From positions 124,001-188,000 of the forward strand of contig NZ_JAHWXY010000005.1 in NCBI RefSeq assembly GCF_024281235.1: a stretch of 64,000 nt of DNA, read 5' to 3'. Below are positions 29,939 to 63,538 of the stretch, piece after piece. The notes beneath the pieces are model-generated. The model worked only from the letters and a program-made list of their open reading frames with translations. It was not told the DNA's origin and ran no database searches. Positions within the stretch are counted from its first letter, which is position 1. Every line of letters begins with the position of its first letter. Both the position numbers and the translations under genes were made by a program. This stretch comes from Shinella daejeonensis (GTDB taxonomy: Bacteria > Pseudomonadota > Alphaproteobacteria > Rhizobiales > Rhizobiaceae).

Positions 29939-29939
29939 C

Positions 29940-38075: not shown

Positions 38076-38090
38076 TGAGATCATCAGTCA
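38076..38090. promoter_or_regulatory. TGA-N9-TCA iron-responsive box upstream of the siderophore receptor
   Basis: TGAGATCATCAGTCA matches the rhizobial IRO motif (TGA-N9-TCA) bound by the iron-sulfur regulator RirA. It lies 60 bases before the TonB receptor start and is preceded by A and followed by A, like other boxes in this window. Confidence 0.5.
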
Positions 38091-38149
38091 AGTTTTGTCC
38101 TGCGCCATGGTTATGGCACGGGGACGCATTTTTTTGGAGACAGGGCACA

Positions 38150-42165: not shown

Positions 42166-42166
42166 C

Positions 42167-43947: not shown

Positions 43948-44879
43948 GCTGCATCCAGTTTGTTCATCAGAATATCGAGACCGTCGAGAAAGCGGTTCGC
44001 GGTCAGGTGCATTTCCGGCCAGATATCCGGCAGGCCGACAAGCCTGCCCGATGCGACGGCGGGAAGCCGGCGAAAGCCCGGCAGGTCGAGGATCGGCTGG
44101 ACCTCGGGCGAAGGCTGGCCGTCGAGCGTCGGATAGAGGAACCCCTGCACATCGCTCAATTCGTCGACCTGTTCATAGGAAAGCTGGACGCCGTTGGCCT
44201 CGTCGGTGCGCGCGACGGGCGGCAACGATACGCCGAGGTCACGAAAGATCCGCCCCGTCCACGAAATCGAGCTATGGATGAGGATCTGCCGGTCGCGCCC
44301 GCTGATCACGGCCAGCGGTCCGTGTTGACGCGCGCCGGACCAGCGTTCGTGGGATTTGGCGACGCGGGCACCATAGGCATCGCGGTCGGCCTGAGCCTGC
44401 GCTTCAAGCCCCATCGTGGCTGCAAGCGCATCGGAGGTCTCCAGCAGTGCGCCCGCCCCCTCGGACTGGATCAGCACCGTCGGTGCGATGGCCGACAGCT
44501 TGCGGTAAAGGGCCGAATGGTCGGCGCCGCTGCGCACCATACCCACGATGAGATCGGGTCGGAGCGCCAATATCGCCTCGTAGCGAAGCTGTCCGCCATA
44601 GGTCGAGGCGCCGACCACCGGGACGTCCGCGAGAATCTGCGCGCCCGCTTCCGTCAGCGATGTACGGCTGACTGTCGTGGCTCCGACGGGCCTCAGGCCA
44701 TAATTGGCCGCCACCGCCGCCGCCGCATCGAGGGCGACGATCCTTTCGGGCGCGGCCGGGATCGTCACCGGCCCAAACGCGGTCGCGACCTTGAGGTCCC
44801 CCGAAAAACCCGCTGCGGGCGCAAATAGCGCCAGCCCGCCCAGGGTGAATGTGCGTCGGGTGAGATGTCGTCGTGTCAT
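43944..44879 (-). CDS. Periplasmic ferric-siderophore-binding protein (FepB/FhuD-like)
   Basis: A 311-residue class III binding protein. The N-terminus has a Tat signal (MTRRHLTRRTFTLGGLAL). Cleft motifs are PERIVALDAAAAVAANYGLRPVGAT and ILALRPDLIVGMVRSG. It delivers ferric siderophore to the permease pair. Start 44879 is chosen for the Tat signal; an in-frame ATG at 44963 would add 28 residues that cross the iron box. It is the first gene of the import operon. Confidence 0.9.
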   Translation of the reverse strand: MTRRHLTRRTFTLGGLALFAPAAGFSGDLKVATAFGPVTIPAAPERIVALDAAAAVAANYGLRPVGATTVSRTSLTEAGAQILADVPVVGASTYGGQLRYEAILALRPDLIVGMVRSGADHSALYRKLSAIAPTVLIQSEGAGALLETSDALAATMGLEAQAQADRDAYGARVAKSHERWSGARQHGPLAVISGRDRQILIHSSISWTGRIFRDLGVSLPPVARTDEANGVQLSYEQVDELSDVQGFLYPTLDGQPSPEVQPILDLPGFRRLPAVASGRLVGLPDIWPEMHLTANRFLDGLDILMNKLDAA

Positions 44880-44922
44880 TGTCCAGGATGAGTGCTTGCG
44901 GCCAGAGGATGGACCGAATACA

Positions 44923-44937
44923 TGACATTTACTGTCA
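44923..44937. promoter_or_regulatory. TGA-N9-TCA iron box in an 89-base divergent promoter
   Basis: TGACATTTACTGTCA is a near-palindrome (TGACA and TGTCA arms) that fits the IRO motif. It lies 44 bases before the binding-protein start and 31 bases before the serine hydrolase start, so one site could repress both directions. Confidence 0.6.
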
Positions 44938-44968
44938 AGATTGTCCATGTGAAAAGGATGCAAGCCGC

Positions 44969-46232: not shown

Positions 46233-46790
46233 TCAGTCCTTCAAGGCCAGAAGCTCGCGCGCGCGAACAAAGGCCGTCGTGAAGCCTGCGAGGGAGAGCT
46301 TCAGCTCGACAGCGGCGCCGCTGCTGGCGTTAGCGGCTGAAACGAGCGCCTCCTTCCCGTTTTTGAGACGGTCGAGCTGCTCAGCCCGGAATTCCACCGG
46401 CACGATGCATCCCGCCTCGACGCAGGTCATGAACGGGAACGGCGTTGAAAATGGCGTGCCGTCCACCGAAAGCCTGACACCATCGGCAAGCTTCAGTCCG
46501 AAGGGTGAAAGCAGGATGCCTTCCGCCTGCGTTTCACTGACCGGAACCAGCTCCAGGCTGAGCACGGTTTCTCCCGTGCTGCGGGCGAGGGCCTGAAGGA
46601 GCATGCAGGATTTCCGGGCTTCGACGATGCGGCAGGAAACGGTCCAGTCGCCATGGCTTTCCTGAACCGAGGAAGCCCCGCCCGGCAACGCGGTGGAGCT
46701 TTCCGTCTGGGCATGCGCGGGATGGGAGACGCCAAGGGCGATGCAGAAGAATGCAACCGCCTGAAGCAGGTGGGAAGATGGCCGTGTCAC
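46233..46790 (-). CDS. IalB-family (invasion-associated locus B) periplasmic protein
   Basis: A 185-residue exported protein: signal peptide (MTRPSSHLLQAVAFFC...AHAQ, cleavage near residue 28), then the IalB pattern HGDWTVSCRI...KSCMLLQAL and GCIVPVEF, with four Cys that probably form disulfides. IalB proteins are common in alphaproteobacteria; their molecular role is unclear. It overlaps the ChaN gene by four bases and is the last gene of a haem-related operon. Confidence 0.82.
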   Translation of the reverse strand: MTRPSSHLLQAVAFFCIALGVSHPAHAQTESSTALPGGASSVQESHGDWTVSCRIVEARKSCMLLQALARSTGETVLSLELVPVSETQAEGILLSPFGLKLADGVRLSVDGTPFSTPFPFMTCVEAGCIVPVEFRAEQLDRLKNGKEALVSAANASSGAAVELKLSLAGFTTAFVRARELLALKD

Positions 46791-47638
46791 GCGGTGTTCC
46801 TTTCTGGAGCCCTGTCATGGGTATCGAGACGAAAAAGCGCATCCGCGATACCCGCCGATCGCCCGCCGTCGAACGTTTCGCTGTCGGACGGTAGCAACAC
46901 CGACACCTCCGCAACACCGAGATCGGCCAGTTGGAACGGCGTCCCATGGCCGAATTCGAGATGCCCGCGGCCGATAATGCCGATGACGAGCGCATCCGGC
47001 GTTTCGGCCAGAACCTCCTTGATGTTGCAGGCGAAGGCGCGGTCCCAGGTCTGCTGGGCCCGCACGAAGCGATCGAAATCCGGACTGTCGGAGCTTGTCG
47101 CCTTGCGGGCGGGATTACCGCCGCCCGTCAGGTCGAACAGATATTTCCGGTAGGCGGGCGTGGCGCTTCTTGCAGGCGTCAGGCCATCGCGGTCTTCTTC
47201 CGCAATCGCATCCCAGCCGAATTTGCCGACTTCGGTGACAAGCGGCCGACGGCAGTTGAGAGCCTTCATCGGAATGCGGAACTGGCGGCAGAAGTGGAAG
47301 AGCGGAAGGTATAGTTCCGGCGTGAACCCCCAGACGGTCTTCCATTCCGACTGTTCGAGGAAGTCTTCCGTATCGAGATCGCCCGCAATCCAGGCATCCA
47401 GGGCCGGCTGCACACGGCGGGGAAACATCTCAAATCCCATGACGAGACGCCGGCCCGTCGCCATAAGACCGGCCGCCACATGGAGTTGCCAGCGGTGAAT
47501 GTCGTAGCGGTCATGCGTCTCGCCGAGAAGGACGGCACGCTTGCCGCCCATGCGGGCGATGAGTTCTCCATGGGGAAGTTCCGTTCCGGTCTGCGGATCG
47601 AGCCAGGTGCCGGGCTTATGCGCAATTGTGACAGTCAT
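46787..47638 (-). CDS. ChaN/PhuW-family haem-related protein
   Basis: A 283-residue protein of the ChaN family. The N-terminal motif VLLGETHDRYDIHRWQ (around residue 40), GFEMFPRR and the C-terminal GIIGRGHLEFGHGTPFQL are the family hallmarks. ChaN-type proteins bind haem in several bacteria. The usual lipobox or signal peptide is absent from the start at 47638, so this copy looks cytoplasmic. Its position with a haem receptor and a HemS-like gene supports a haem link. Confidence 0.78.
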   Translation of the reverse strand: MTVTIAHKPGTWLDPQTGTELPHGELIARMGGKRAVLLGETHDRYDIHRWQLHVAAGLMATGRRLVMGFEMFPRRVQPALDAWIAGDLDTEDFLEQSEWKTVWGFTPELYLPLFHFCRQFRIPMKALNCRRPLVTEVGKFGWDAIAEEDRDGLTPARSATPAYRKYLFDLTGGGNPARKATSSDSPDFDRFVRAQQTWDRAFACNIKEVLAETPDALVIGIIGRGHLEFGHGTPFQLADLGVAEVSVLLPSDSETFDGGRSAGIADALFRLDTHDRAPERNTA

Positions 47639-47642
47639 GAAA

Positions 47643-48386
47643 CTATTCCGCTCCCTCGCCGGCGTGTGTGAAGATCGCACCGTCGTCGGCATGAAGTGTC
47701 AGTCCGATCCCCTTGCCGTCCTTGCCAAGCGCGGTCAGTTCCGTCCGGCCTTCCACGGTACGGGACACCCAGCTTGCAACGGAGCCGCCGGGTAGATGCA
47801 GATGGAAATCACCGTCCATCACATTGATGAAACCCATCGCGAGGCTGACTTTCGGCACCACGCCCGTCCAGCGCTGGGAAAAGCCGCTCTTCTCGAAAGC
47901 GATGCCGATAGGCTGCCCCGAGGCGAGCGCCGCTTCGAGCGGCAGGCGGCCGGGATCGTCGTCGGCGACCTCCGGGCGCTGCTTGCGTTCCGCAGCCTTG
48001 TCATTCGCCGGCAAGGTCTCGAGGGAAAGCCCGGCAAGCGCCTTTTCGAAGGGCTCCAGACCGCCGAAGCCGACAACGCTGACGACCGCCCGGCCGTCGA
48101 CGTCATTGAAGTCGATCCGCGGATAGACCTGATCGCGCATCACGCTGGTGGTGTCCGCGACGATCGTCGCAATGTCTTTAATCCGGATCAGACTGTCATG
48201 GGCCGCGCCGCGACAAGCCAGCGCATCACCCTGACGCTCGACATATTCGACGGGGCCGATGCGTTCGTGCGTGACGTCGTCGGTCTTGCCGATGATCATC
48301 AGCTTGCCGATCTCCGGCAGAAGCCGAAACACCGTTTCGGCATCCGCCTTGATGGTGTAGCGGGCGGGAAGGGATTTTTCCGTCAT
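47643..48386 (-). CDS. Divergent HemS/ChuX-like haem-utilisation protein
   Basis: A 247-residue protein without signal peptide. One stretch, VMRDQVYPRIDFNDVDGRAVVSVVGFGG, aligns with the HutX/ChuX segment FLVRRPFMGV...FFNADGETIFKIYVGRD found in this window at 58200. The overall length is shorter than the two-repeat HemS/HmuS type and longer than ChuX. A haem-binding role is inferred from this and from its place between an ABC gene and ChaN. The match is partial, so another identity is possible. Confidence 0.45.
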   Translation of the reverse strand: MTEKSLPARYTIKADAETVFRLLPEIGKLMIIGKTDDVTHERIGPVEYVERQGDALACRGAAHDSLIRIKDIATIVADTTSVMRDQVYPRIDFNDVDGRAVVSVVGFGGLEPFEKALAGLSLETLPANDKAAERKQRPEVADDDPGRLPLEAALASGQPIGIAFEKSGFSQRWTGVVPKVSLAMGFINVMDGDFHLHLPGGSVASWVSRTVEGRTELTALGKDGKGIGLTLHADDGAIFTHAGEGAE

Positions 48387-48411
48387 GGGTATCTCCAGAA
48401 CAAGTCGGGTT

Positions 48412-50094
48412 TCAGGCAAGTGCGGCGACAGCCGCATCGGGTGGATTGAGATCGACGATCCGTTTCGGCGCCATGGCCGCGGGTTCGCGATGCGCGATGA
48501 TGAGGAAAGCCGTTAGCGGCAGCCGCTGGCGAAGCAGCGACAGGAGATGGCGCTCCGCCGCGGCATCCAGCGCGCTGGTCGCTTCGTCGAGCACTGCCCA
48601 ATCGGGTTTGTGCAGAAGAAGACGGGCGAAGGCGAGGCGCTGCATTTCGCCGCCGGACAGGCCGTCTGCGGATGCGTCGATCCTCAGGCCGAGCCCGACG
48701 TCGCAAATCGCCTGCCGGACGGCCTCCGCGCCCAGAGCGTCGACCGTCATCGGATAGGCCGCCGCTTCCAGCAGCGTGCCGGCAGGAACCCACGGCTTTT
48801 GCGGCAGGAACATCCATTCGCCATCAGCGCGCTCGATGATCCCGCTGCCGTGCGGCCAGAATCCGGCCAGCGCCTTGACGAGCGTCGTCTTGCCAAGGCC
48901 GGAAACACCCCGGAGCCAGACGATCTCACCCGGCCGGATGACGGCGTCATCGATATCGAGCAGCCGTCGGCCGTCCGGCGCGTCCAGACGCAGCTCCCGC
49001 AGCCGTGTCGCATCGCCGGTCTTGCGGTATGCATAGCTGGAGGGGCGACCTGCTGCCGATTTCGCGCTTTCGATGAATGTATCGAGCCGCGCCGATGTGG
49101 CGACCAGATCGGCAAGGTCGCGATAAGAGAAGATGAACCAGGAAAGCGTCGTGACGACGCTGGAGAAGGCCGTGGCAAGCTGCATCAACCCGCCAAAGGC
49201 GACATGTCCGGCAAAATACCCCGGCAGGGCCACGAACAACGGAATGCGCAGCACCGAATGCTGGAATGGATAGGTGAACGTACCGAGGATCAATTCGCGG
49301 CGGATCAGCTTGTGCCAGTTTGCCACGACGCTGTCGAAACGATCCCGGAAGTTGCGCTTTTCGGCTTCCTCGCCGTTGGTCAGGGCAACTTCATCGAACG
49401 CCGTGCGCCAGCGCGCCATGGCGTAGCGAAAGCTTGCCTCGCGGCGTTGCTGCTCCACGAAGAGACCTTTCAGCGGGCGGCCCAGAAGATGGGTGATGCC
49501 GCTGGAAAGCGCGACATAGAGGAATGCGGCCCAGACCATATAATGGGGAATATTGACCGACAGGCCGCCGATCGAAAAGCTCAGCGGGAAATCGGAAAGA
49601 CCCCAAAGCAGGGTGAGATAGGAAAACAGCCCCACCACACGCTGGATAAGGTCCAGCGCCTCACCGAGAAGCCCCCGCACGAAGAGGCGGCAATCTTCCG
49701 CGATCCGCTGGTCGGGGTTATCGATGGCCTGTTGCGAGTGGGCGAGGTGCCAATAGGCTTTCCCCCGCGTCCAGCAATCGATCGCGGCATCCGTCAGATT
49801 CCGGCGCCAGCGGATTTCAAGCACTTTTCTGAGATATCCGCCGATAAGGTGCCTTACGGAATTAAGCCCGACGATCAGCACGAATATGCCGATCTGCCGC
49901 AAGGCCTCCCTGCCGTCGACTTTCTCGACGGCAGAATAGAATTCGCCGGTCCATTGCACGATGCGGAGCGTCGCGTAGACACTGCCGAGGTTGAGCGCGA
50001 TCACGACGGCGAAAAGCAGCAGGCTGATCTTGCTGCCCGGTGCGTGAACGCACAGGCGCATGAGCCTTAGAATTTGCCTGAATACATTCGGCAT
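48412..50094 (-). CDS. Fused ABC protein of the BacA/SbmA-ABCD type (membrane domain plus ATPase)
   Basis: A 560-residue half transporter: SbmA/BacA-like membrane domain (residues 1-320, about six segments, LEIRWRRNLTDAAIDCW and NPDQRIAEDCRLF, signatures of the YddA/Rv1819c group) followed by an ATPase with Walker A GVSGLGKTT, signature LSGGEMQRL and Walker B WAVLDEATSALD. Known members move peptides or cobalamin (Rv1819c). It lies 72 bases behind a haem receptor gene in one operon. No HmuTUV-type importer occurs in this cluster, so it could replace it, but the substrate is unproven. Confidence 0.82.
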   Translation of the reverse strand: MPNVFRQILRLMRLCVHAPGSKISLLLFAVVIALNLGSVYATLRIVQWTGEFYSAVEKVDGREALRQIGIFVLIVGLNSVRHLIGGYLRKVLEIRWRRNLTDAAIDCWTRGKAYWHLAHSQQAIDNPDQRIAEDCRLFVRGLLGEALDLIQRVVGLFSYLTLLWGLSDFPLSFSIGGLSVNIPHYMVWAAFLYVALSSGITHLLGRPLKGLFVEQQRREASFRYAMARWRTAFDEVALTNGEEAEKRNFRDRFDSVVANWHKLIRRELILGTFTYPFQHSVLRIPLFVALPGYFAGHVAFGGLMQLATAFSSVVTTLSWFIFSYRDLADLVATSARLDTFIESAKSAAGRPSSYAYRKTGDATRLRELRLDAPDGRRLLDIDDAVIRPGEIVWLRGVSGLGKTTLVKALAGFWPHGSGIIERADGEWMFLPQKPWVPAGTLLEAAAYPMTVDALGAEAVRQAICDVGLGLRIDASADGLSGGEMQRLAFARLLLHKPDWAVLDEATSALDAAAERHLLSLLRQRLPLTAFLIIAHREPAAMAPKRIVDLNPPDAAVAALA

Positions 50095-50166: not shown

Positions 50167-52488
50167 TCAGAACTTCACGGTTGCGCCGATCTTGAAGGTG
50201 CGGCCCGCTCCGGTCTGAAGCTCGAGGGGGTTGACGTTGGCGACGGCGGTGGAGGCCGGCGTGCGCTCGTAACCCGTCAGCGAGTTCGGGAAGTAGCGGC
50301 GATCGAAAATATTCTCGATGCCGACCGTGAGTTCGAAGTCCTTGCGGGGCGACCATTTGGCATAGGCATCGAACAGCGCGTAACCCGAGGGCAGGAAGGC
50401 GGTTGCGCTGGCGTTTTCCGTGCGGCCCGAGGCAAGGGTGGTGAACAGTTCGAACTGAAGGCCGTAGTCCGGCATTTCATGCCTCAGCCCCAGCACGGCG
50501 ACCAGCGGGATGGCGCCGTCGAAGGCGGTCGTTGCGGCACCGGCATTCACCTTCTGCCGGCCGCGGCTCCAGGCGATGTTCGCCGAGGCGGTGGTATTCT
50601 CCATGACCTCGTATTCGCCGCCGATCTCGATGCCCCAGAAACGGACGTCCTCGACGTTGCTGGACGTATAGGCCGTTACCGGTACGCCTGTCGGATCGAT
50701 GATCGTGACGGGATGGAAGCCGCGGATGAAATCCGTGTATTCCGCATAGAAGGCGCCGACGGTGAAATAGCCCCTGTCAAGCTCGCCGCGGAAGCCGACC
50801 TCGTAGTTCTGGACGGACTCCGGACGAAGCGCCGGATTCGGAATGATCGCGGAACCCGTGAACAGATCCGTGCTGGACTGGAAGAGCTGCGCCGAAGTCG
50901 GCATCTTGAAGCCTTCGCCATAGGCGGCATAGGCCGAATAGGTATCGTCGAACTTGTAGATCGCGCTGAAACGCTTGATCAGTTCGTTATGGGTCTGCTT
51001 TTGCGGCGGGAAGCCCGGCAGGCCGGGATAGCTCTTGTCTTCGGTCGGGTCGATCGAATAGTGCGCGAAACGCAGACCCGGCGTGAGCGTCAGCCTGCCG
51101 TCGAGAAGTTCGATCTCGTCCTGGATGTAGAAGTCCGCGCGCTGGGTCGTGACCCGCGGAAAACTGAAGCCCTGATTGATCGCGGTGGTCGTGGTATCCG
51201 TGAGCGAATTGTAGGTCGTGTTGATGCCTGCGTAGTCGCCCTCAGTGCGGTCGCCGTCGAAGCCGTAGATCAGCGTGTGATGCGTCGAGCCAAGATCGAA
51301 CGACGACTGGAGCTGGACGTCGGCCTCGAAGAAGTCCTCGCTGTAGTTGCGGTACTGATTGTGCAGCTGGTAGCGGTCGGAATAACGGCGACGCTGGTTG
51401 CTATCGGTTTCCCGGCTTTGCGGCGAGTAGGACAGACGCCAGTTGAGCGTGTCCAGCCAGTTTGCGCCGACATCCCAGTTATGCTCCAGCGCGATGCGCT
51501 TGCGGCTCATTTCGAGATCGCGGATATAGGGATCGTTCAGATAGCCTGTCGTCGTCGGAATGCCGGTCGTCACCTCGCTCATGTCGTAGAGTTGCAGGAT
51601 GCTCGTATCGCGGCCGAACAGCTCGCCCGTCAGTTTGACGGTGTGCTCGCCATCCGGGGTCCAGACAACCTTGGCCAGGGCGTTGTTGACGTCGGTATCG
51701 GCGGGGAAGATCACGTTGCAGCCGATGTAGGGACGCGTGCAACCCCAGATGCCGCCGTCGGCCCGGGCATTGCGCAGGCGCGGCTCGCTGGAGGATACGT
51801 GGCCGTAGCTGCCCAGCACCTGGACGTCGCCGAAATCATAGGCGGCAGTCACCTGCTTGCGCCAGCTGCGATCGAAGCTGTCATAGCCGGTCTTCGTCTC
51901 CAGGGCCCAGGGCTTGTCGCTGCCGGCCAGAAGATCGGAGGGATCGCGGGTCCGGAACATCACCGCGCCGCCCAGCGCATCAGCGCCCCAGAGCACGGAG
52001 TTCGGCCCCCGGACGATCTCGACGGCCTTCATGTTGCTCATGTCGAAGAAGTCGCGGCTGCCGTCGGTGATCTGCTCCTGGACACGCGAGCCGTCGACGG
52101 ACAGCTGAACGCGGTTTCCGCCCATCCCGCGGATGGAGAAGGACGTAAGCTGGCCCCAGGGGTTGGTGATGGACGTCTGGCGGTTGACGGCGATGCCGGG
52201 CTCGCGCCGGACGAGATCCTGGATGTCCCGGACGTTATAATCGTCCAGTTGCTGGCGATCTATCACCGAGATCGACTGCGGAATGTCGAGAGGCTTCTTC
52301 GCACGGCGCGTCGACAGGACGACGATCTCTTCGAGAACGGTCGCCTGGGCTTGCGTAAGGCCGGCATCATTGTCTTGCGACTGTGCGGAAAGCGGCATTG
52401 CGAGGCTGACCGAGGCAACCCCGGCAGCAAGAAGACCCGCACGACGGCGGAATGACGCGCGGCGCGCGACGGAGACATTTTCAATCAT
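50167..52488 (-). CDS. TonB-dependent haem/haemoglobin receptor
   Basis: A 773-residue outer-membrane receptor. Residues 1-37 are a Sec signal ending SAQS, the TonB box follows (TVLEEIVVLSTRR), then the plug with IPQSISVIDRQQLDDYNVRDIQDLVRREPGIAVN, SIRGMGGNRVQLSVDGSRV and MKAVEIVRGPNSVLWGADALGGAVMFRTRDP, the haemoglobin-receptor style plug. The barrel has the family motif NPALRPESVQNYEVG near residue 560 and ends in VKF. Start 52488 has GGGGTGGG ahead. Two iron boxes lie upstream. Confidence 0.9.
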   Translation of the reverse strand: MIENVSVARRASFRRRAGLLAAGVASVSLAMPLSAQSQDNDAGLTQAQATVLEEIVVLSTRRAKKPLDIPQSISVIDRQQLDDYNVRDIQDLVRREPGIAVNRQTSITNPWGQLTSFSIRGMGGNRVQLSVDGSRVQEQITDGSRDFFDMSNMKAVEIVRGPNSVLWGADALGGAVMFRTRDPSDLLAGSDKPWALETKTGYDSFDRSWRKQVTAAYDFGDVQVLGSYGHVSSSEPRLRNARADGGIWGCTRPYIGCNVIFPADTDVNNALAKVVWTPDGEHTVKLTGELFGRDTSILQLYDMSEVTTGIPTTTGYLNDPYIRDLEMSRKRIALEHNWDVGANWLDTLNWRLSYSPQSRETDSNQRRRYSDRYQLHNQYRNYSEDFFEADVQLQSSFDLGSTHHTLIYGFDGDRTEGDYAGINTTYNSLTDTTTTAINQGFSFPRVTTQRADFYIQDEIELLDGRLTLTPGLRFAHYSIDPTEDKSYPGLPGFPPQKQTHNELIKRFSAIYKFDDTYSAYAAYGEGFKMPTSAQLFQSSTDLFTGSAIIPNPALRPESVQNYEVGFRGELDRGYFTVGAFYAEYTDFIRGFHPVTIIDPTGVPVTAYTSSNVEDVRFWGIEIGGEYEVMENTTASANIAWSRGRQKVNAGAATTAFDGAIPLVAVLGLRHEMPDYGLQFELFTTLASGRTENASATAFLPSGYALFDAYAKWSPRKDFELTVGIENIFDRRYFPNSLTGYERTPASTAVANVNPLELQTGAGRTFKIGATVKF

Positions 52489-52542
52489 GGCCCACCCCTT
52501 TTCAACCACGTTCGACGTGGTGCGCTGCAGGCCTAATAAACA

Positions 52543-52582
52543 TGACTAAAAGAATCAAGATTGAACTTGATAAAAATAGTCA
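52543..52582. promoter_or_regulatory. Two TGA-N9-TCA iron boxes upstream of the haem receptor
   Basis: TGACTAAAAGAATCA (52543-52557) and TGATAAAAATAGTCA (52568-52582) are spaced 25 bases centre to centre in AT-rich DNA. The nearer box ends 55 bases before the receptor start. Two adjacent matches at one promoter are much less likely to be chance than one. Confidence 0.65.
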
Positions 52583-52768: not shown

Positions 52769-52799
52769 AAATAACATGAGTATTATCATCATGTTATTT
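52769..52799. promoter_or_regulatory. Extended palindromic iron box upstream of the HlyB-like exporter
   Basis: Arms AAATAACATGA (52769-52779) and TCATGTTATTT (52789-52799) are perfect 11-base complements around a 9-base spacer, so the centre is again TGA-N9-TCA. It stands 61 bases before the exporter start. The 371-base gap between the two divergent genes contains this site, the two boxes at 52543-52582 and no gene. Confidence 0.7.
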
Positions 52800-54713: not shown

Positions 54714-56882
54714 TCAGAACTTGACCCGCGCCGTCACCTCGATGCTGCGGCCGGTACCCGGCAGTTCGCCGAATGTTGCGCGATATTCCTTGTTCAGGAT
54801 GTTGTTGAAGTTCAATGAGAAGCTGAGGCGGTCATTCTCGCCGTAGCTGCCGCCGAACGCCAGGTTGAGCGTTCCCCAGCCGGGAAGTTTCTCGGTGACG
54901 AGACGGCCATTGTCCAGCGAGGTCTGCTTGTTGGCGACCGCACCGCGCACGAAGACGTCCGCCCAGACCGGCGTATCGTGCCAGTCGCCCTCGTAGCGCA
55001 GGCCGATGCGGCCGGACAGCGCCGGCGTGTCGCTGTTATAGGTGGAGAAGGTGGCATAATCCAGTTCGCGGCGGATCCATGCTCCGCTGACATAGGGCGC
55101 AAAGCCGCTGTTGCCGAACTCGTATTCGGCCAGTAGCTCGAGGCCGAAGGTCGTCGCCCGGTCGGCGTTGACATAGACCGAGGAGCCTGCGCCCAGGCAG
55201 GAGCCGACGGGTGCGCCCATGCCCGTGCAAGGCGCCGTGGCAATATAGTTCTTCGCCCGGGTGTAGAAGGCGCCGGCGTCGAATGTCAGGCCGTTGTCCT
55301 CATAGCGCGCGCCGATCTCGAAGTTGCGGGCCGTCTCGGAATCAAGCGCCGGATTGCCGTAGATCGTCTGACCGCCGGCCGTCGAGGTGCTGAAGAGTTG
55401 CAGCAGCGTCGGCGTGATATAGCCTTCCGAATAGCCGGCCCGAAGGGTCAGCGGATCGAAAGGACGCCAGGTGATGCCGAGCGAGGAAAGAAGCTGCGTG
55501 TCGTTCTCTCCCTCCCAGCCGGCGCGGGCAGCCTCCGTGGTCCTGTCCAGTTCGGTACGGATATGGCTGAGCCGCAGGCCGGAGATCAGCGTCAGATCGT
55601 CGGTGAGGCTCCATTCGTCCTGGGCATAGAGCGAGAAAGTGTCGATATGGGCCTTGTCGTAACTGTTCCGGATCAGCGGCGGGGGCGGCGGGTTCGGCCG
55701 GATGGTGGTGACCGTCCGTGAGGTTTTCCGGGTGGTCAGACTATCGGAAAGATACTGTGCGCCGACGATCGTCTTGTGGTTTTCCAGAAGATCGAGATCG
55801 ACCTGCGTGTTCATCCCGTAGTTCGTGATGCGGTCGTCCGAAGTCGAGGTGGAATCGACCGTGATGATGGGCATGGGCGAAGCCAGAAGCTCATTTCGGA
55901 AAAGCCGATCGATCGTCTGATAGTAGAGGTCGACGTGGATCTTCCGGACGGTCTCGCTGATGTCGTCGCCGTCATAGTAAAGGCCGACCTTGCGGCGGTC
56001 ACGCTTCGGCAGGTCGATCAGGAATTTCTGCGTATTGGGTGGCAGGGCGGTCGGCCGCCCCTCGCTTTCCAACTCGTGCTGCTCGAATTTCAATGCCAGG
56101 TAATGATTATCGCTGTCGCCGAAGCGATAGCCGAGATGCCCGTAGATGTTGCGGTTGTTGAAGGTGGTGTGGTCGAGTTCGCCCGTCGCCGAGTAAATCC
56201 CCTTGGCGACACGGCGGTTCTTGTGGTCGTCGGCCGAAACCGAAAAGCGATAGTCGAAGCCATCCTTGCTGCCGGACGCCGCCGTCCAGCCCTGCCAGCC
56301 GCGCGAGCCGGAGGAATAGGTGCCGCCGGCTTCGATCTGGATCGGCTTGTCGGCGCCCTTCTTCGTCACGATGTTGACGACGCCGCCGATCGCCTTGGCG
56401 CCGTAAAGCACCGAGGACGGTCCCTTGACCACTTCGATGCGTTCGACAGCGGCCGGATCGATCAGCAGCGGCGTACCGTAGGTGCTGTGATCGGTGATCT
56501 CCTGTCCGTCGACGAGGATCGTCACGCGCCGCGAGCTTTCGCCGCGGATACGCAGCCGCTTCATGCCGGCAATCGATTCGTCCGCCACTTCGACGCCGGG
56601 CACATCGCGCAGGAGTTCGGCGATGCTGTCGGCCGGGCGGCGTTCGATTTCCTTTTCATCGATCACCGCCACGGAGCGCGGATTGTCCTTGATGGCAAGC
56701 TCCGTGCGCGTGCCGACGACGGTGACCGTATCGAGCCATGTCCCCCCGTCGACATTGCCGATCTCCTGCGCCAGCGCCGGGAAAAGGCCGGAAGGCGCGG
56801 TGGAAAGCAGAAGCGCGATCGACAGCCTGCGCCACGCGCACATCGGCCATCCCTCGCGGATCGCGATGGAATATGTTGTCAT
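54714..56882 (-). CDS. TonB-dependent outer-membrane receptor, probable haem or siderophore receptor
   Basis: A 722-residue receptor. A signal peptide covers about residues 14-39 (WRRLSIALLLS...ALAQ), the TonB box region is LDTVTVVGTRTEL, and the plug has DNPRSVAVIDEKEIERRPADSIAELLRDVPGVEV and VERIEVVKGPSSVLYGAKAIGGVVNIVTKKG. The barrel carries NPALDSETARNFEIGARYEDNG, a motif of haem and vitamin B12 type receptors, and ends VKF. GAGAGGG precedes the ATG at 56882. It shares the operon with a small four-cysteine protein. Confidence 0.88.
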   Translation of the reverse strand: MTTYSIAIREGWPMCAWRRLSIALLLSTAPSGLFPALAQEIGNVDGGTWLDTVTVVGTRTELAIKDNPRSVAVIDEKEIERRPADSIAELLRDVPGVEVADESIAGMKRLRIRGESSRRVTILVDGQEITDHSTYGTPLLIDPAAVERIEVVKGPSSVLYGAKAIGGVVNIVTKKGADKPIQIEAGGTYSSGSRGWQGWTAASGSKDGFDYRFSVSADDHKNRRVAKGIYSATGELDHTTFNNRNIYGHLGYRFGDSDNHYLALKFEQHELESEGRPTALPPNTQKFLIDLPKRDRRKVGLYYDGDDISETVRKIHVDLYYQTIDRLFRNELLASPMPIITVDSTSTSDDRITNYGMNTQVDLDLLENHKTIVGAQYLSDSLTTRKTSRTVTTIRPNPPPPPLIRNSYDKAHIDTFSLYAQDEWSLTDDLTLISGLRLSHIRTELDRTTEAARAGWEGENDTQLLSSLGITWRPFDPLTLRAGYSEGYITPTLLQLFSTSTAGGQTIYGNPALDSETARNFEIGARYEDNGLTFDAGAFYTRAKNYIATAPCTGMGAPVGSCLGAGSSVYVNADRATTFGLELLAEYEFGNSGFAPYVSGAWIRRELDYATFSTYNSDTPALSGRIGLRYEGDWHDTPVWADVFVRGAVANKQTSLDNGRLVTEKLPGWGTLNLAFGGSYGENDRLSFSLNFNNILNKEYRATFGELPGTGRSIEVTARVKF

Positions 56883-57426: not shown

Positions 57427-58110
57427 CTATGCAGACAGAGGGAACGGCTGGACCGGATTGGCGCATTGCATTCGTCCGGAATCGACGATGGCGAAGGCAT
57501 GGCCGACGGTTGCCGGATCCCGAAGCGTGCGCAGCGTCATCAGGGCGACATCCTCGCGGTGGACGACGCCGTGCATTTCAGGATCCGTCGACAGGATCGC
57601 CTCACCGGTTGCCGGCTCGGAAATCAGGCCCCCCGGCCGAAGGATCGTCCAGTCGAGGCCGCTTCGGCGCAAGGTGTCCTCCGCCCGGGTCTTGGCGTCA
57701 ACGGCCGCTCCGAAGGCGGAGATAGCGCGCGCCGAGCGGAAAGGCGCCATCTCGCCGCAACCGATCGAGGTGATGAGCACGACGCGGCGCGTGCGGCCAC
57801 TGTCGACGGCCGCCCTGACGACGTTGATATTGCCTTCGTCGTCGGCGCGGCGACCGTCCTGCGCCCGTCCGCCGAGCGTCGAGACGATATCGATGTCGCC
57901 TGGCGTGCCGGCGATCGCGCGCGCGACGTCCTCGGACGAAAGCGCATCGCCGCGCAGGAGGGTCGCACCGATCGCCTGAAGAGCCTCGACGGTGGAGCCG
58001 GGCCGCACGAAAGCCGTGACTGCGCGGCCCTGCGCACGGGCATGGCGGGCGAGTTCCAACCCGACGCCCCGGGTCGCGCCGAAAATGAGCAGCGTCCCCC
58101 TGTCAGGCAT
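57427..58110 (-). CDS. NAD(P)-binding SDR-like protein, ChuY-like anaerobilin reductase candidate
   Basis: A 227-residue atypical SDR of the NmrA/biliverdin-reductase type: LLIFGATRGVGLELARHA at residues 7-24 binds the cofactor, then VLITSIGCGE, TRAEDTLRRSGLDWTILRPGGL. The start MPDRGTLL overlaps the HutX stop by eight bases. In enterobacteria the genes chuW, chuX and chuY lie in this same order; ChuY reduces anaerobilin, the product of ChuW. The identity here rests on fold and position; specific ChuY residues were not checked. Confidence 0.7.
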   Translation of the reverse strand: MPDRGTLLIFGATRGVGLELARHARAQGRAVTAFVRPGSTVEALQAIGATLLRGDALSSEDVARAIAGTPGDIDIVSTLGGRAQDGRRADDEGNINVVRAAVDSGRTRRVVLITSIGCGEMAPFRSARAISAFGAAVDAKTRAEDTLRRSGLDWTILRPGGLISEPATGEAILSTDPEMHGVVHREDVALMTLRTLRDPATVGHAFAIVDSGRMQCANPVQPFPLSA

Positions 58111-58636
58111 GGCCGGCGCTTTCGGCGAAGCGGGTTTCCAGCCGGTTGAAACGGTCAATCTGGTCCTGCTTCAGTCGGCGCTGTTCATCGCGGCCGACAT
58201 AGATCTTGAAGATCGTTTCGCCATCGGCATTGAAGAACTGCACCGACAGCGTATCGACGCCCATGAAGGGACGGCGAACGAGGAAGATCGACTTGCAGTT
58301 CTCGTGCCGCAGATGGCCGGAAAGGCCCTGGCCGCCGCCTTGCAGATTGTACATGCCGTGGCCGATCCTGCCCTTGGGCAGCGGGCCGGAAAACTCCACG
58401 ACGGCGTCCTTCGAGTGGCAAATGAAGGTGATGTCGCCCCAGTCGGCGATGTCGGTCAGAACGTCGACGAAATGCCGCCCGTCGATACGAGCAGCGCCGC
58501 CGGCCGGCACGCATTCGATCACCGTCTGCACCGGCACGTCATATTCCGTCGCAAGCGCCTCGAGGATGCCGTCCGGCTTCTCGGCGATGGCCTGTCGGAT
58601 GCGTTCGATCTTTTCCGCATGGTTGAGGGTCTGCAT
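58103..58636 (-). CDS. hutX: HutX/ChuX, cytoplasmic haem-binding carrier
   Basis: A 177-residue haem utilisation protein: IECVPAGGAARIDGRHFVDVLTDIADWGDITFICHSKDAVVEFSGP and the second-half LVRRPFMGVDTLSVQFFNADGETIFKIYVGRD are characteristic. It is known to bind haem and to hand it to the radical SAM enzyme HutW/ChuW. It follows hutW by 29 bases and overlaps the SDR gene after it. Confidence 0.9.
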   Translation of the reverse strand: MQTLNHAEKIERIRQAIAEKPDGILEALATEYDVPVQTVIECVPAGGAARIDGRHFVDVLTDIADWGDITFICHSKDAVVEFSGPLPKGRIGHGMYNLQGGGQGLSGHLRHENCKSIFLVRRPFMGVDTLSVQFFNADGETIFKIYVGRDEQRRLKQDQIDRFNRLETRFAESAGHA

Positions 58637-58665
58637 GGCGATACTCCGTTCAATGGATTGTTATG

Positions 58666-60048
58666 TCAGGCGGCGTTGTCGGTGGGACACAGTTGCGTCT
58701 GGAGGATTTCGTGGAAGGCGGAAATCAGGTTGGCGTACCAGAAGCGGCCCGCCACGGTGAGTTCGATGGTCTCGTCCTCAAGCGTGAGAAGACCGGCTTG
58801 CCGCCATTGCGCCAGCAACGGCGTGAACAGACCGGACGCGATCGCCCCGCCGGCGGCCTTCTCCAACCCGGCAAGATCGAGATGCCCGACCTCGAAGCCG
58901 GCGGTCACCCTGTCGCGCAGCGGCTGGATGGCGTCGCTGGCGCTCAGCATGCCGATCGGCTTTCGGCCGGCGTGCATGTCCTCGCCATAGCGTTGCAAAT
59001 CGCTCGTCAAGCCGTAGCTGTAGCGGCCGATCGAACCGCCGGCGCCCGAGCCGAAGGCGAGGCAATCGGCGCCTTCCTTGATCAGCATATTGTAGATATT
59101 GCGCTCGCGCGTCGTGCGCCCCCAGTGGTTGTTCGTGAGCTGACGCCAATTGCGGCGGCGGAAGAAATCCGCTCCTGCGCGATAGAGCGCGCCGATATCG
59201 CCAAGCCCTGCGGCGGCGGGAAACTTGCCGGCGGAAATCGCCTTGGACAGGGGCGTGCCGGGGATAAGATTAAGGCCGTAGAGATCGATGCCGTCGGGGG
59301 CGAGGGCGGCGGCCGTCTCCAGATCCTGATGCCAGACTTCGGGCGTCTGGCCAGGCAGGCCATAGATGAGGTCGATCACCAGGGCGGCGCGGTCGCGGTC
59401 GCGGATACCCTCGAGAAAGCGCACGGCTTCCTCGCGGCTTGCCCGCCGGCCCTGTCGCCGACGCACCTCGGTGTCGAAACTCTGGACGCCGATCGAGAAA
59501 CGATTCGCTCCGGCCTCGAGGCAGGCGTCGATTTTTTCCGGATCGAAATGGATGATGCGGCCCTCGACGGTGATTTCGCAGTCGGGAGCGAGCGGCAATT
59601 CTGCACGGACGGTCGCCAGCAGATCGGAAAGCTCCCTTGCCGAAAGCGCGGTCGGTGTTCCGCCGCCGAAGTAGACTGCATGGACCGGATTGTCGCGCAG
59701 GGCCGGCGCGCGCGCCTCGCGGCGTATCTCCTCGATGACGAGCTTGACGTAATCGGCGCCCGTCTGCGGCACATAGGCGTTGCGATAGAAGCCGCAGAAC
59801 AGGCAGTGATTGGCGCAGAAGGGTATATGGACATAGACAAGCCGCTTGCCGGGCCAGCTCGGGGCCGACAGGATTGCCCGCCACCGCGTCTCGATCTCTT
59901 CGGCGGGCAGCCGCTTCTTGCCGCGAAACGGCATGACGGCGGTGCGGCGCGCAAAGGCGTCGCTCAAGGGGTCGGGGCCGGCATCGTTCGCGTAGTAACG
60001 CGTCATGTCCGCGTGTGCTGCCATTTTTTGCCGTGCTTCCGTTTCCAT
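58666..60048 (-). CDS. hutW: HutW/ChuW, radical SAM methyltransferase for anaerobic haem degradation
   Basis: A 460-residue radical SAM enzyme. The iron-sulfur motif CxxxCxxC is Cys78, Cys82 and Cys85 in FCANHCLFCGF, followed by FGGGTPTALS, the SAM-binding GGTP region, and GVQSFDTEVRRRQGR and DLIYGLPGQTPEVWHQDL of the HemN-like class. ChuW opens haem with a methyl transfer to give anaerobilin and Fe(II), without oxygen. In a denitrifier this suits growth without oxygen. An iron box lies 66 bases upstream, and hutX and a ChuY-like gene follow. Confidence 0.9.
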   Translation of the reverse strand: METEARQKMAAHADMTRYYANDAGPDPLSDAFARRTAVMPFRGKKRLPAEEIETRWRAILSAPSWPGKRLVYVHIPFCANHCLFCGFYRNAYVPQTGADYVKLVIEEIRREARAPALRDNPVHAVYFGGGTPTALSARELSDLLATVRAELPLAPDCEITVEGRIIHFDPEKIDACLEAGANRFSIGVQSFDTEVRRRQGRRASREEAVRFLEGIRDRDRAALVIDLIYGLPGQTPEVWHQDLETAAALAPDGIDLYGLNLIPGTPLSKAISAGKFPAAAGLGDIGALYRAGADFFRRRNWRQLTNNHWGRTTRERNIYNMLIKEGADCLAFGSGAGGSIGRYSYGLTSDLQRYGEDMHAGRKPIGMLSASDAIQPLRDRVTAGFEVGHLDLAGLEKAAGGAIASGLFTPLLAQWRQAGLLTLEDETIELTVAGRFWYANLISAFHEILQTQLCPTDNAA

Positions 60049-60113
60049 AAGACCTGTCGCGGAGGCCGAACCTAAGGCAAAAAAACTTGAGTTGTTTGCT
60101 CCAGATCAAATTG

Positions 60114-60130
60114 ATGACTTTTATTGTCAT
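60114..60130. promoter_or_regulatory. TGA-N9-TCA iron box of the hutW operon
   Basis: ATGAC (60114-60118) and GTCAT (60126-60130) are inverted arms around an AT-rich centre, and TGA-N9-TCA is met at 60115-60129. It lies 66 bases before the hutW start. The 610-base gap from 60049 to the nrdA start holds this box and the cobalamin riboswitch, no gene. Confidence 0.65.
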
Positions 60131-60349
60131 GTTTTTTGGAGGGCGTGGCCCCGGCCAGCCGGCCGCGGAAGCGACGTTGTCATTCTCGGACAAGCGCTCA
60201 TCACCCCGTGCACACACGGCATACGATCTCGTCTGCAATGGAAAAGGAGGCTGTCGAGCGCGTCCTTTCAGCCCCACCGCAAGCACCCGGGATGTGGATT
60301 GAGAAACTAGATATTGACGCTTGCATCGCGTGCGGTTCAATATGCTGTG

Positions 60350-60540
60350 GTCACGGTTCTTCTGAGTCTGTCCGGACTCTGGAGCTAAGAGGGAAGCCAG
60401 TGCCCCGAATCCGGGAATGCTGGCGCTGCCCCCGCAACTGTAAGCAGCGAGTCGCTATCTCGTGAAACGCCACTGGTGTCGAGGCACCGGGAAGGCTGGA
60501 TAGCGATGACGACCTGTAAGCCAGGAGACCTGCCGTAACG
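60350..60540 (+). ncRNA. Cobalamin (AdoCbl) riboswitch in front of nrdA
   Basis: All hallmark elements are present: GGGAAGCCAGTG near 60391, the conserved GCCCCCGCAACTG (60427-60439), the CACTGG and GGGAAGG steps near 60470-60495, and the B12 box AGCCAGGAGACCTGCC at 60519-60534. Edges are estimated. The aptamer lies 119 bases before the nrdA start, enough for an expression platform. In this class coenzyme B12 binding normally shuts the gene off. Confidence 0.93.
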
Positions 60541-60658
60541 CCATGAACGAACCTCGGGCGGGGTGTCCCGGTGGTGCGCGTGCCTCTCGTGCGGCAGGGC
60601 CGTGCGCTTCCGGCATGCGTTGCCTCGCGCTCTCCGTCCACAACGCCACGGGGATACG

Positions 60659-63538
60659 ATGCAGACGACCATAGCACTCCACACCGAGGGGGCCGATGAG
60701 GCTCCGATGCTTCCCGACGACAACGGGCATGCGCCGACGCAACCGGCTTACCGCATCATCCGGCGCAACGGCGCGGTAACGCCGTTCGATCCGATGAAGA
60801 TCACGATCGCGCTGACGAAAGCTTTCCTCGCCGTGGAGGGATCGGCGGCGGCCGGTTCGCGGCGTGTCCACGACGTGGTAACGGATCTCACCGGGCAGGT
60901 GGCTTCCGCGCTGACCCGGCGTGTCGGCGAGGGCCGCACCTTCCATATCGAGGACGTACAGGACCAGGTTGAACTCGCGCTGATGCGCGGCGAGCATCAC
61001 AAGGTCGCCCGCGCCTATGTGCTCTATCGCGAAGAGCGGGCACGCGAACGGGCTGCGGAAAAGGCGGCGGTGGCAAGCTCCGTGCCATTGCTGCATGTCA
61101 CGATGGAGGACGGGTCGCTCAGGCCGCTCGACGAGGACCGGCTGGCCCGCATCGTCGAGGAAGCCTGCGACGGGCTGGACGCCGTATCCGCCGCGCCGAT
61201 CCTGACCGAGGCCCGCCGCAACCTCTATGACGGTCTTTCCCTGGACGAACTGTCGCTGGCGCCGATCCTGGCAGCGCGCACGCTGGTGGAGCAGGAACCG
61301 AACTATGCCTTCGTCTCCGCGCGGCTGCTGCTCGACCGTCTGCGCCGGGAAGCCCTCACCTTCGTGGCCGGGCAACCGGAGCAGGCGACACAGGCCGAAA
61401 TGGCGGCGCGCTACGCCAGCTATTTCCGCGAATTCCTGCGCGTCGGCATCAAAGCCGAGTTGATCGATCCCGAACTCGGCCGCTTCGACCTTGCACGGCT
61501 GGGCGCCGCGCTGAAGCCGGAACGCGACCTGAGCTTCCAGTATCTCGGCCTACAGACGCTCTATGACCGCTATTTCCTGCATACGCGTGGAAAGCGCTTC
61601 GAGTTGCCGCAGGCTTTCTTCATGCGGGTGGCGATGGGGCTAGCGGTCCGCGAGATCGACCGCGAGGCGCGCGCCATCGAATTCTACGACCTCCTGTCGT
61701 CCTTCGACTTCATGGCCTCGACGCCGACGCTCTTCAATTCGGGCACGCTTCGTCCGCAACTGTCATCCTGCTTCCTCACCACGGTCGCCGACGACCTCGA
61801 CGGCATCTTCAAGGCGGTCAGGGACAACGCCCTGCTTGCGAAATATTCGGGCGGCCTCGGCAACGACTGGACCCCGGTGCGCGGTCTGGGGGCTCACATC
61901 AAGGGCACCAACGGCGAGAGCCAGGGCGTGGTGCCGTTCCTGAAGGTGGCCAACGACACGGCCATCGCCGTCAATCAGGGCGGCAAACGCAAGGGCGCGG
62001 TCTGCGCCTACCTGGAGACCTGGCACGTCGACATTGAGGAATTCCTCGACCTCAGGAAGAACACCGGCGACGACCGCCGCCGCACGCATGACATGAACAC
62101 CGCCAACTGGGTGCCCGACCTGTTCATGCAGCGCGTCGAAGCGAACGCCGAGTGGACACTGTTCTCGCCTGACGAGGTTCCCGACCTGCACGATCTTTAT
62201 GGCGTGGCGTTCAAGGCGGCCTATGAGGCGTATGAGGCCAAGGCCGCCGGCGGCGGGATCAAGGTGTTCCGGAAGGTCAGGGCACTCGACCTGTGGCGCA
62301 AGATGCTGACCATGCTGTTCGAGACCGGGCATCCATGGATCACCTTCAAGGACCCGTGCAACATCCGTTCGCCTCAGGGGCATGTCGGCATCGTGCATTC
62401 TTCGAACCTGTGCACCGAGATCACGCTGAACACCTCGAAAGACGAGGTGGCGGTGTGCAACCTCGGCTCCGTCAACCTCCCAAACCATGTCACCGAGAAG
62501 AAGCTGGACCTCGACCGGCTGGCGCGGACGGTCGGCACGGCAATGCGGATGCTCGATAACGTCATCGACATCAATTTCTATACAATTCCGGAGACGCGGC
62601 ACTCCAACTTGCAGCACCGCCCGGTCGGTCTCGGCATCATGGGCTTCCAGGACGCCCTGCAAGCGCTCCGCATTCCCTACGCGTCGGACGCTGCCGTAGC
62701 CTTCGCGGACGAAAGCATGGAGGCGATCAGCTATCATGCGATTTCGGCGTCGGTCGGGCTTGCCGCCGAGCGCGGCCGCTATCCGAGCTTCGAGGGTTCG
62801 CTGTGGTCGAAGGGCATCCTGCCCGTCGATTCCATCAAGCTGCTCGAGGATGCGCGTCCAGGGGTCGAAATGAACAGCCGCTCCACGCTCGATTGGGAAG
62901 CGCTGCGCAAGCGGGTGAAGAAGACCGGCATGCGCAACTCCAACTGCATGGCGATCGCACCGACGGCGACCATTTCCAATATCTGCGGCGTGTCGCAGTC
63001 GATCGAGCCGGCCTACCAGAACCTGTTCGTCAAATCGAACATGTCGGGCGATTTCACGGTGGCGAACGCTCGCCTCGTGCACGACCTGAAAGCCCGGGGC
63101 CTGTGGGATGAGGTGATGGTGTCGGACCTGAAATATTTCGATGGCTCCATCGGCCAGATAGACCGCATCCCCGACGACCTCAAGGCGCTCTACGCGACGG
63201 CTTTCGAGATCGAAGCCGCATGGCTGATCGAGGCCGCCTCGCGTCGCCAGAAATGGATCGATCAGGCGCAGTCCCTCAATCTCTACATCGCCGATCCGTC
63301 AGGCAGGAAGCTTGACGCGCTTTACCGCCTGGCATGGCGGAAGGGGCTGAAGACGACCTACTATCTGCGCTCCCGCTCGGCCACGCATGTCGAGAAATCG
63401 ACGCTGAAAGGCACCGACGGAAAGTTGAACGCGGTGTCGGCGAGCGTTGCGGCCGCCGGGCCCATTGCCATCAATCCGGACGCGATGCGGGTCAAGGCCT
63501 GCGCGATCGACGACCCTGAATGCGAAGCCTGCCAGTGA
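60659..63538 (+). CDS. nrdA: Class I ribonucleotide reductase large subunit (NrdA)
   Basis: A 959-residue catalytic subunit that makes deoxyribonucleotides. The N-terminus carries two ATP-cone-like domains (about residues 30-120 and 140-220), as in Pseudomonas NrdA, so allosteric control is expected. The active site is complete: Cys371 (SSCFLTT), Asn583/Cys585/Glu587 (NLCTEITL), Cys600 (CNLGSVNL), the radical-transfer pair Tyr901-Tyr902, and the C-terminal redox pair Cys955/Cys958. The start at 60659 removes a poorly conserved 32-residue extension. nrdB follows. Expression is under a cobalamin riboswitch. Confidence 0.94.

Follow-up and report, generated by a model that had tools for sequence, protein, structure and literature searches.

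Three tightly spaced genes on the minus strand of the Shinella daejeonensis window (the whole 64-kb stretch of DNA analysed here), at 58666–60048 (460 amino acids), 58103–58636 (177 amino acids) and 57427–58110 (227 amino acids), probably form an operon for recovering iron from haem in anoxic growth, under low-iron and low-oxygen or denitrification control. The first gene encodes HutW/ChuW, a predicted radical SAM haem-opening methyltransferase of the anaerobilin synthase type, which is a full-length equivalog match to TIGR04107 (538.3 bits against a cut-off of 400, E = 1.2e-161, model positions 2–419 of 419), matches PF04055 in Pfam and carries the radical SAM CxxxCxxC motif as CANHCLFC in its translation. 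The second encodes HutX/ChuX, a predicted cytosolic haem carrier, also a full-length equivalog match (TIGR04108, 204 bits against a cut-off of 110, model positions 1–154 of 154), with PDB relatives 2ph0 (3.5e-39) and ChuX 2ovi (6.6e-37). The third overlaps hutX by 8 bp and its product is nearest, among solved proteins, to ChuY and ShuY. With HutW and HutX above their curated cut-offs and the third gene so placed, sequence comparison supports assigning all three genes to a ChuW–ChuX–ChuY set; the initial annotation had described a radical SAM enzyme with CxxxCxxC, a haem carrier and a reductase, and the three sets of matches bear this out.

Cytosolic haem would be passed from HutX to HutW, which would methylate and open the ring through radical SAM chemistry and so free Fe2+, and ChuY would then use NAD(P)H to reduce the linear product. 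Relatives of the set were collected as 59 loci found by peptide patterns from the Shinella HutW, a sample rather than a census; their HutW proteins are 43–74% identical to that of Shinella over the best segment, and all 59 have a HutX match. A wide distribution of HutW in the family was rejected: 393 of 394 family genomes match the model loosely and 6 of 394 pass its cut-off, the loose matches being taken as HemN/HemW kin.

Two adjoining boxes upstream of hutW

The promoter of hutW looks wired to both iron shortage and oxygen-free respiration, judging from an FNR/FixK-type box that adjoins a RirA-type iron box, an arrangement that is new at this gene. The FNR/FixK-type box, TTGATCTGGAGCAA (60096–60109, minus strand; motif from PMC3050613 and PMC1274295), has one mismatch to TTGAY-N4-RTCAA, within one half-site of the TTGAT-N4-ATCAA type; it is conserved in relatives, and the copy at locus L009 is perfect. 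At a gap of 5 bp lies the iron box, which has the published form TGA-N9-TCA (60115–60129) and is conserved beside the FNR-type box. A pair of the TTGA-N6-GCAA form, with a gap of 1–9 bp, occurs once in the 4.66-Mb genome (0 in the backwards control), and a wider form of the pair is found in 9 of 60 hutW upstreams, which make up four groups at 80% HutW identity, and nowhere else across the loci concerned (2.39 million strand-bases). Chance as the source of the boxes was rejected on this uniqueness of the pair in the genome and on the confinement of the wider form to hutW in the loci and the window. By itself, TGA-N9-TCA is found 23 times in the window, against 11.0 expected.

The FNR slot is shared more widely. 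Box types were chosen after the sites and papers had been looked at, and on this basis an FNR- or NnrR-type box, perfect or with a single mismatch, lies upstream of hutW in 18 of the 24 Rhizobiales-type loci (the window, L001–L019, L043, L049, L057 and L058, a few MAGs being placed by title or similarity), or 11 of 15 when these are grouped at 80%. Fourteen of the 18 boxes stand 53–66 bp before the assumed start, which here, as in the pair count, is the position aligned to the Shinella HutW Met rather than a mapped start; six of the 24 loci have no such box, and in four more it falls outside the slot. The corresponding figures are 3 of 35 at the other loci, 37 of 387 at other upstreams predicted by our own ORF picking and 4.9% of 2400 random windows. 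Locus L041, with little upstream DNA, is within the 60 of the pair count and outside the count of FNR- and NnrR-type boxes.

Transcription would need two conditions, namely low iron, when RirA is off its box, together with either low oxygen or denitrification, when an FNR-family activator is bound to the box adjacent to that of RirA. The genome encodes an FNR-like protein with four cysteines, as well as an Rrf2 protein with Cys 91, 99 and 105 (counted from Met3), which we take to be RirA-like on the presumed cysteine positions of RirA. Of ten RirA peaks, five carried the TGA-N9-TCA operator motif (PMC8822346). The RirA cluster is described as lost in air too (PMC6748827), so that the iron box may itself already respond to oxygen. 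Within the open-access literature searched, which leaves subscription journals mostly outside, no paper joins RirA with chuW, with hutX, or with FnrN, promoter and heme together.

The second signal could also be nitric oxide, with the activator being not an oxygen-sensing FNR but the Cys-less Crp/Fnr-type protein encoded beside nos (P0008, window 1471–2163) or another NO-responsive regulator. DNR boxes are similar to FNR boxes and the alphaproteobacterial NnrR site is given as TTGcg-N4-cgCAA (PMC1274295); a perfect box for NnrR, a NO regulator, occupies the FNR slot in two relatives, L006 and L058. This is possible but on balance doubtful, as the slot reads TTGAT-N4-AGCAA here and in most Rhizobiales-type relatives, which is nearer the FNR/FixK type, and the genome has its four-cysteine FNR-like protein.

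Haem receptors and the source of haem

Two TonB-dependent receptor genes lie on the same strand as the set. TBDT1 (54714–56882) has TIGR01785 as its best model, at 273 bits and thus under the cut-off of 316.85, and the haem receptor PhuR (8the, 4e-28) as its best PDB match; it was rejected as a certain haem receptor and is kept as haem-receptor-like. TBDT2 (50167–52509), of the haem/haemoglobin type, passes both cut-offs (TIGR01786, 330.5 against 323.75; TIGR01785, 323.4 against 316.85) and matches PhuR 8the at 3e-70. Motif searches place two TGA-N9-TCA iron boxes before TBDT2 (52543–52582) and a perfect extended iron box, AACATGA-N9-TCATGTT (52773–52795), before the ABC gene at 52860. Further along on the minus strand (46233–50094) are IalB-like, ChaN-like, HemS-domain and SbmA/BacA-like ABC genes (PF06776, PF04187, PF05171 and PF05992/PF06472), which are candidates for a part in haem handling. 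Of 23 genomes examined (the Rhizobiales-type set without L057, Shinella included), 22 have an HmuV-type ATPase above the model cut-off, which 4 of 14 control genomes also pass. The haem receptors, together with an Hmu-type importer whose genes lie elsewhere, would bring haem in. As general background, the placing of B12 riboswitches ahead of class I reductases is a recognised regulatory scheme.

Alternatively, the operon might turn over the cell’s own haem, either to regain iron held in haem-rich respiratory proteins or to dispose of an excess during oxygen-independent haem synthesis in denitrification. The presence of hemN on the same contig as hutW fits such a role, as does the fact that no more than 16 of 59 relatives have a TBDT1 match (at least 40% identity over at least 50% coverage) flanking hutW. 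We consider it unlikely, given that chuY is followed by P0007 and a haem-receptor-like gene, that iron boxes precede both TBDT2 and hutW, that an HmuV-type ATPase is present and that an iron-shortage box suits supply more than detoxification.

The third gene and P0007

The third gene (57427–58110, minus strand) encodes a protein predicted to be a NAD(P)-binding anaerobilin reductase of the ChuY type. It matches PF13460 in Pfam at 129 bits, and its best PDB sequence matches, ChuY 5guy (1.2e-29) and ShuY-like 5ffq (2.8e-29), are followed by 3e8x (3.9e-9) and biliverdin IX-beta reductase 1hdo (1.2e-8). Its identity is 38.7% to E. coli ChuY, as opposed to 27.6% to 3e8x and 28.7% to BLVRB. An identity as a biliverdin reductase was rejected on these E-values and identities, and the ChuY role, at first put forward as an inference, is favoured by the same comparison with ChuY/ShuY. 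Among the 59 relatives, a ChuY match above 90 bits is found in 36 and is absent in 23, including four of the 23 Rhizobiales-type ones (L015, L019, L043 and L057). In a tree with very long outgroup branches and 13 open forks, E. coli ChuY falls among the hutW-linked sequences; its own group there has 10 rows and support 99/97 and leaves out the window’s protein. A general flavin or biliverdin-type reductase without relation to anaerobilin is highly improbable, for although the broad family is common to both and biliverdin reductase B does match distantly, the E-value to ChuY/ShuY is about 20 orders of magnitude better than that to the next solved proteins, and the chuY-type gene is linked to hutW in those 36 relatives.

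After chuY comes the gene for P0007 (56924–57310, minus strand), a new and undescribed protein of 128 amino acids with two beta-beta-alpha-beta repeats and four invariant cysteines, as seen in a 10-row alignment (A1, which omits the fragmentary copy of L049) and an AlphaFold model with a mean pLDDT of 89. Membership in a known family was rejected: neither Pfam nor NCBIfam has a family that matches P0007 at E ≤ 0.01, profile searching of the PDB yielded nothing above chance (best E 0.47), and a Foldseek search of PDB folds gave none with E ≤ 0.001 (best E 0.23). Among the candidates scored in the family survey, at most 11 first-look ones per genome, a full-length match occurs in 3 of 394 genomes, and all three carry HutW. 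P0007 may be an accessory cytosolic protein of the haem route, which would make it a new candidate part of haem breaking.

Denitrification and known systems

By gene content, the host is a denitrifier. The 190-kb contig with the hutW set also bears napA, nirK, nor-type and nos genes; the host’s NapA, NirK and NosZ pass curated cut-offs, and COX1, cytochrome c and NorQ-type domains stand at the expected places of norB, norC and norQ. The Nos and Nor names that have no model test behind them are presumed. The initial annotation had placed the trio close to where a nos cluster ends and had drawn the denitrification link from that position. Direct adjacency was rejected in this genome: the nosZ match (C33:120000) falls some 4 kb ahead of the window, and the ApbE gene, Crp/Fnr-type regulator, cupredoxin and NnrS genes at window 119–3966 end about 53 kb from chuY. 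The link itself has support from the shared contig, from 4 of 59 relatives in which hutW has nos genes no more than 10 kb away, from the 18 upstream boxes and from an association within the family, where NirK is found in all six HutW-positive genomes against 158 of 388 HutW-negative ones and NosZ in five of six against 92 of 388, a comparison that rests on six carriers and is uncorrected for kinship. A NosZ match is absent in 17 of 51 distinct HutW genomes, which take in 50 of the 59 loci (L030, L033, L034, L036, L054, L055, L056, L057 and L059 are out).

The operon of E. coli O157:H7 presumably has the order chuW–chuX–chuY. Its proteins belong to the same three families, with HutX like ChuX and the third gene like ChuY (PMC10404700, PMC10035031). 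Unlike E. coli, Shinella has FNR- and RirA-type boxes upstream of hutW, P0007 and TBDT1 after chuY, and a 264-amino-acid HemS-domain gene about 9 kb away, as opposed to a ChuS adjoining the set, in a denitrifying Rhizobiales host. Vibrio cholerae HutW is the same radical SAM enzyme, but that organism is described as being without a ChuY homologue (PMC10035031). Fusobacterium nucleatum HmuW/HmuF likewise opens haem by radical SAM chemistry and has a reductase dedicated to the product, but there flavodoxin-type HmuF combines carrying and reduction, which in Shinella fall to separate HutX and ChuY (PMC10404700).

The idea of a ChuW–X–Y set in a denitrifier is already published and is not new here: the alphaproteobacterium Hyphomicrobium denitrificans has one, Hden_0599–0601, for which anaerobic haem degradation and iron acquisition were proposed; its gene numbers continue directly from Hden_0564–0598, a cluster that includes genes for nitric oxide reductase (PMC12423496). 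A difference is that its chuW transcript is lowered in SoxR and sHdrR mutants, with chuX and chuY unchanged, which counts against the proposed operon; the searched text of that paper has no occurrence of FNR or FnrN (PMC12423496).

It is quite possible, if short of probable, that anaerobic haem breakdown belongs to the denitrification regulon of Rhizobiales, under a fixed composite operator of RirA with an FNR-, DNR- or NnrR-type sensor in which the second sensor is swapped by lineage and the slot kept, and that P0007 and the set’s own haem receptor serve the pathway. Many denitrification proteins contain haem or iron–sulphur centres (PMC9409073). If the operon is switched on by iron shortage together with anoxic or NO signals, it would give soil denitrifiers an oxygen-free source of iron, and environmental nitrogen cycling would gain a system whose first descriptions came from gut pathogens.

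The hut genes, their neighbours and P0007

The haem set comprises three adjacent minus-strand genes, as the initial annotation described: hutW (58666-60048, 460 aa), hutX (58103-58636, 177 aa) and a chuY-type gene (57427-58110, 227 aa). NCBIfam models identify the first two products as HutW/ChuW (538.3 bits, cut-off 400) and HutX (204 bits, cut-off 110). The third, to which the ChuY role had been given by inference, contains an NAD(P)-binding domain, and its nearest solved relatives are ChuY (5guy, 1.2e-29) and a ShuY-like protein (5ffq, 2.8e-29), with 3e8x (3.9e-9; 27.6% pairwise identity) and biliverdin IX-beta reductase (1.2e-8) far behind. Alignment favours the proposed role, with 38.7% identity to E. 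coli ChuY versus 28.7% to biliverdin reductase B. In a 40-row tree with very long outgroup branches and 13 open forks, E. coli ChuY is tentatively placed among the hutW-linked reductases of other bacteria. All 59 relatives collected via HutW have a HutX match and 36 have a ChuY match above 90 bits, which is absent in 4 of the 23 Rhizobiales-type relatives (L015, L019, L043 and L057).

Between chuY and the receptor gene TBDT1 sits the gene for P0007 (56924-57310, minus strand), a 128-aa protein that matches no family in Pfam or NCBIfam. Aligned with nine relatives taken from hutW loci, P0007 shows 18 invariant positions, including four Cys. The AlphaFold model predicts two beta-beta-alpha-beta repeats (mean pLDDT 89); its first strand already begins at residue 4, leaving no visible leader in the predicted structure, and a solved-fold search with the model gave no match at E <= 0.001. 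Full-length P0007 matches occur in 3 of 394 family genomes, all three HutW carriers, and a weak 42-residue match occurs in one further genome, where HutW scores below its cut-off (co-occurrence p 8e-6, with the weak match counted against). The other three of the six family HutW carriers have no match.

Candidate haem uptake genes lie alongside. TBDT1 (54714-56882) is haem-receptor-like, below the model cut-off, and a second TonB-dependent receptor, TBDT2 (50167-52509), passes two haem-receptor models and matches PhuR at 3e-70. Downstream of TBDT2, HemS, ChaN, SbmA/BacA-like ABC and IalB domain genes form one minus-strand row (46233-50094). An HmuV-type ABC ATPase exceeds its cut-off in 22 of 23 genomes examined, S. 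daejeonensis included, but 4 of 14 control genomes have one too. Elsewhere in the window, a siderophore-type cluster (38021-44963) encodes a TonB siderophore receptor, an Fe ABC transporter, a siderophore-interacting protein and a periplasmic binding protein; TGA-N9-TCA boxes occur at positions 38076 and 44923. Two caprolactamase beta/alpha subunit-like genes, both below cut-off, adjoin a sugar-type ABC transporter (28010-32027). A cobalamin riboswitch (RF00174, 123.3 bits, 60337-60551, plus strand) directly precedes a ribonucleotide reductase alpha gene (60563-63538), whose product passes NF005544 (1716.7 versus 965) and TIGR02506 and falls just below the NrdJ model TIGR02504 (395.4 versus 399.95).

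Paired boxes upstream of hutW

Two boxes precede hutW: an FNR/FixK-type box, TTGATCTGGAGCAA, at 60096-60109 on the minus strand, and a RirA-type box, TGACTTTTATTGTCA, at 60115-60129, 5 bp further up. In excerpts of the literature, the FixK site is TTGA-N6-TCAA (PMC3050613), the FNR site is TTGATnnnnATCAA, with DNR sites alike, and the alphaproteobacterial NnrR site is ctTTGcgnnnncgCAAag (both PMC1274295). The upper box fits the RirA palindrome TGA-N9-TCA (PMC8822346, in part). Low iron and/or air strips RirA of its cluster and releases it from the box (excerpt of PMC6748827), so that oxygen may act through the iron box of hutW as well.

When the pair is searched as TTGA-N6-GCAA, allowing 1-9 bp between the boxes, the whole genome has a single copy (backwards control, 0). 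A wider form, TTG[AC]-N6-[GT]CAA, is found in 9 of 60 hutW upstreams, which fall into four groups when HutW is clustered at 80% identity; scanning 2.39 million strand-bases across these loci gave no other copy. With box types picked after the sites had been seen, 18 of 24 Rhizobiales-type hutW upstreams contain an FNR or NnrR box at <=1 mismatch, 14 of them at 53-66 bp before the assumed start and 4 further up. Of 387 upstreams taken from other predicted ORFs at these loci, 37 have one, as do 4.9% of 2400 random windows; among the 35 remaining hutW loci only 3 do. After grouping at 80% identity, 11 of 15 Rhizobiales-type groups have a box. In two loci, L006 of Bosea and L058 of Shinella pollutisoli, the FNR slot is occupied by TTGCGCTGGCGCAA, an exact NnrR core. 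From these sequences we infer a single promoter slot that different FNR-family members would serve in different lineages. Eight Pseudovibrio hutW upstreams (L030, L032, L033, L036, L054, L055, L056 and L059) have a near-palindromic iron box, AACTTGA-N9-TCATATT, and seven of them are without an FNR/NnrR-type box at <=1 mismatch.

Across the window, TGA-N9-TCA occurs 23 times versus 11.0 expected, a count reached in none of 100 shuffles. Six of these boxes have an AT-rich core (control patterns 0, 2 and 0): two before the haem receptor gene TBDT2, one before an ABC gene at 52860, one before hutW, one at 44923 where the siderophore-transport operon begins, within the predicted first codons, and one at 40251 inside a receptor gene. 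The genome encodes six Rrf2 proteins over cut-off, one with Cys at 91, 99 and 105 (numbered from Met3), which we take to be the RirA pattern. It also encodes an FNR-like protein with four Cys; the Crp/Fnr-type protein adjoining nos has no Cys.

Denitrification genes on the contig and across genomes

On the hut contig of this 4.66 Mb draft genome (window, C33:124001-188000), NapA, NirK, HemN and NosZ exceed curated cut-offs, NosR matches below its cut-off, and COX1, cytochrome c and NorQ-type domains occupy the expected norB, norC and norQ places. The set had been described as lying close to where a nos cluster ends; this is off by ~53 kb in S. daejeonensis, because the nos-side genes (ApbE, the Crp/Fnr-type regulator, a cupredoxin and NnrS) lie at the window start and the hut genes at 181-184 kb of the contig. 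Nos genes fall within the 10-kb hutW flanks in 4 of 59 relatives (L004, L005, L013 and L058), and in L058 a single 297-aa frame on the opposite strand separates chuY from nosR. In Shinella fusca (L009), hutW is preceded, at a distance of ~2.4 kb, by a second NirK-type gene (6748-7554; 325.9 bits, over cut-off; 522-aa frame). The beginning of the S. daejeonensis contig encodes both VirB8 and a serine recombinase (C33:442-6339), pointing to a possible plasmid or integrative element.

Among 394 family genomes, HutW exceeds its cut-off in 6, NirK in 164 and NosZ in 97; the HutW carriers have NirK in 6/6 and NosZ in 5/6 (one-sided Fisher p 0.005 and 0.004, respectively, not corrected for kinship). 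In 51 distinct hutW genomes (S. daejeonensis and those of 50 of the 59 loci, duplicates removed), NosZ matches in 34 and NirK exceeds its cut-off in 28. The 23 Rhizobiales-type genomes have NosZ in 14 and NirK in 21, and the HutW-NirK link is therefore strong in Rhizobiales and weaker elsewhere.

Proposed role and regulation

Another denitrifying alphaproteobacterium, Hyphomicrobium denitrificans, also has ChuW-X-Y, with locus numbers directly following those of a cluster that contains nitric oxide reductase genes, and the authors propose anaerobic haem degradation and iron acquisition (PMC12423496, in part). Iron restriction raises chuW in Actinobacillus pleuropneumoniae (excerpt of PMC3091793). 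No paper in the open-access literature searched mentions RirA alongside either chuW or hutX. The ChuW-X-Y set itself is thus known, and the new elements are the composite operator, the replacement of the FNR-type box by an NnrR site, and P0007.

As described in parts of PMC10404700 and PMC10035031, haem is bound by HutX, HutW uses SAM to open the ring, which releases the iron, and ChuY reduces the product with NADPH. In S. daejeonensis, RirA would repress the hut set and an FNR-family protein would activate it, P0007 would take part in the haem breakdown route, and HutX, HutW and ChuY would carry out these steps while the cell denitrifies.
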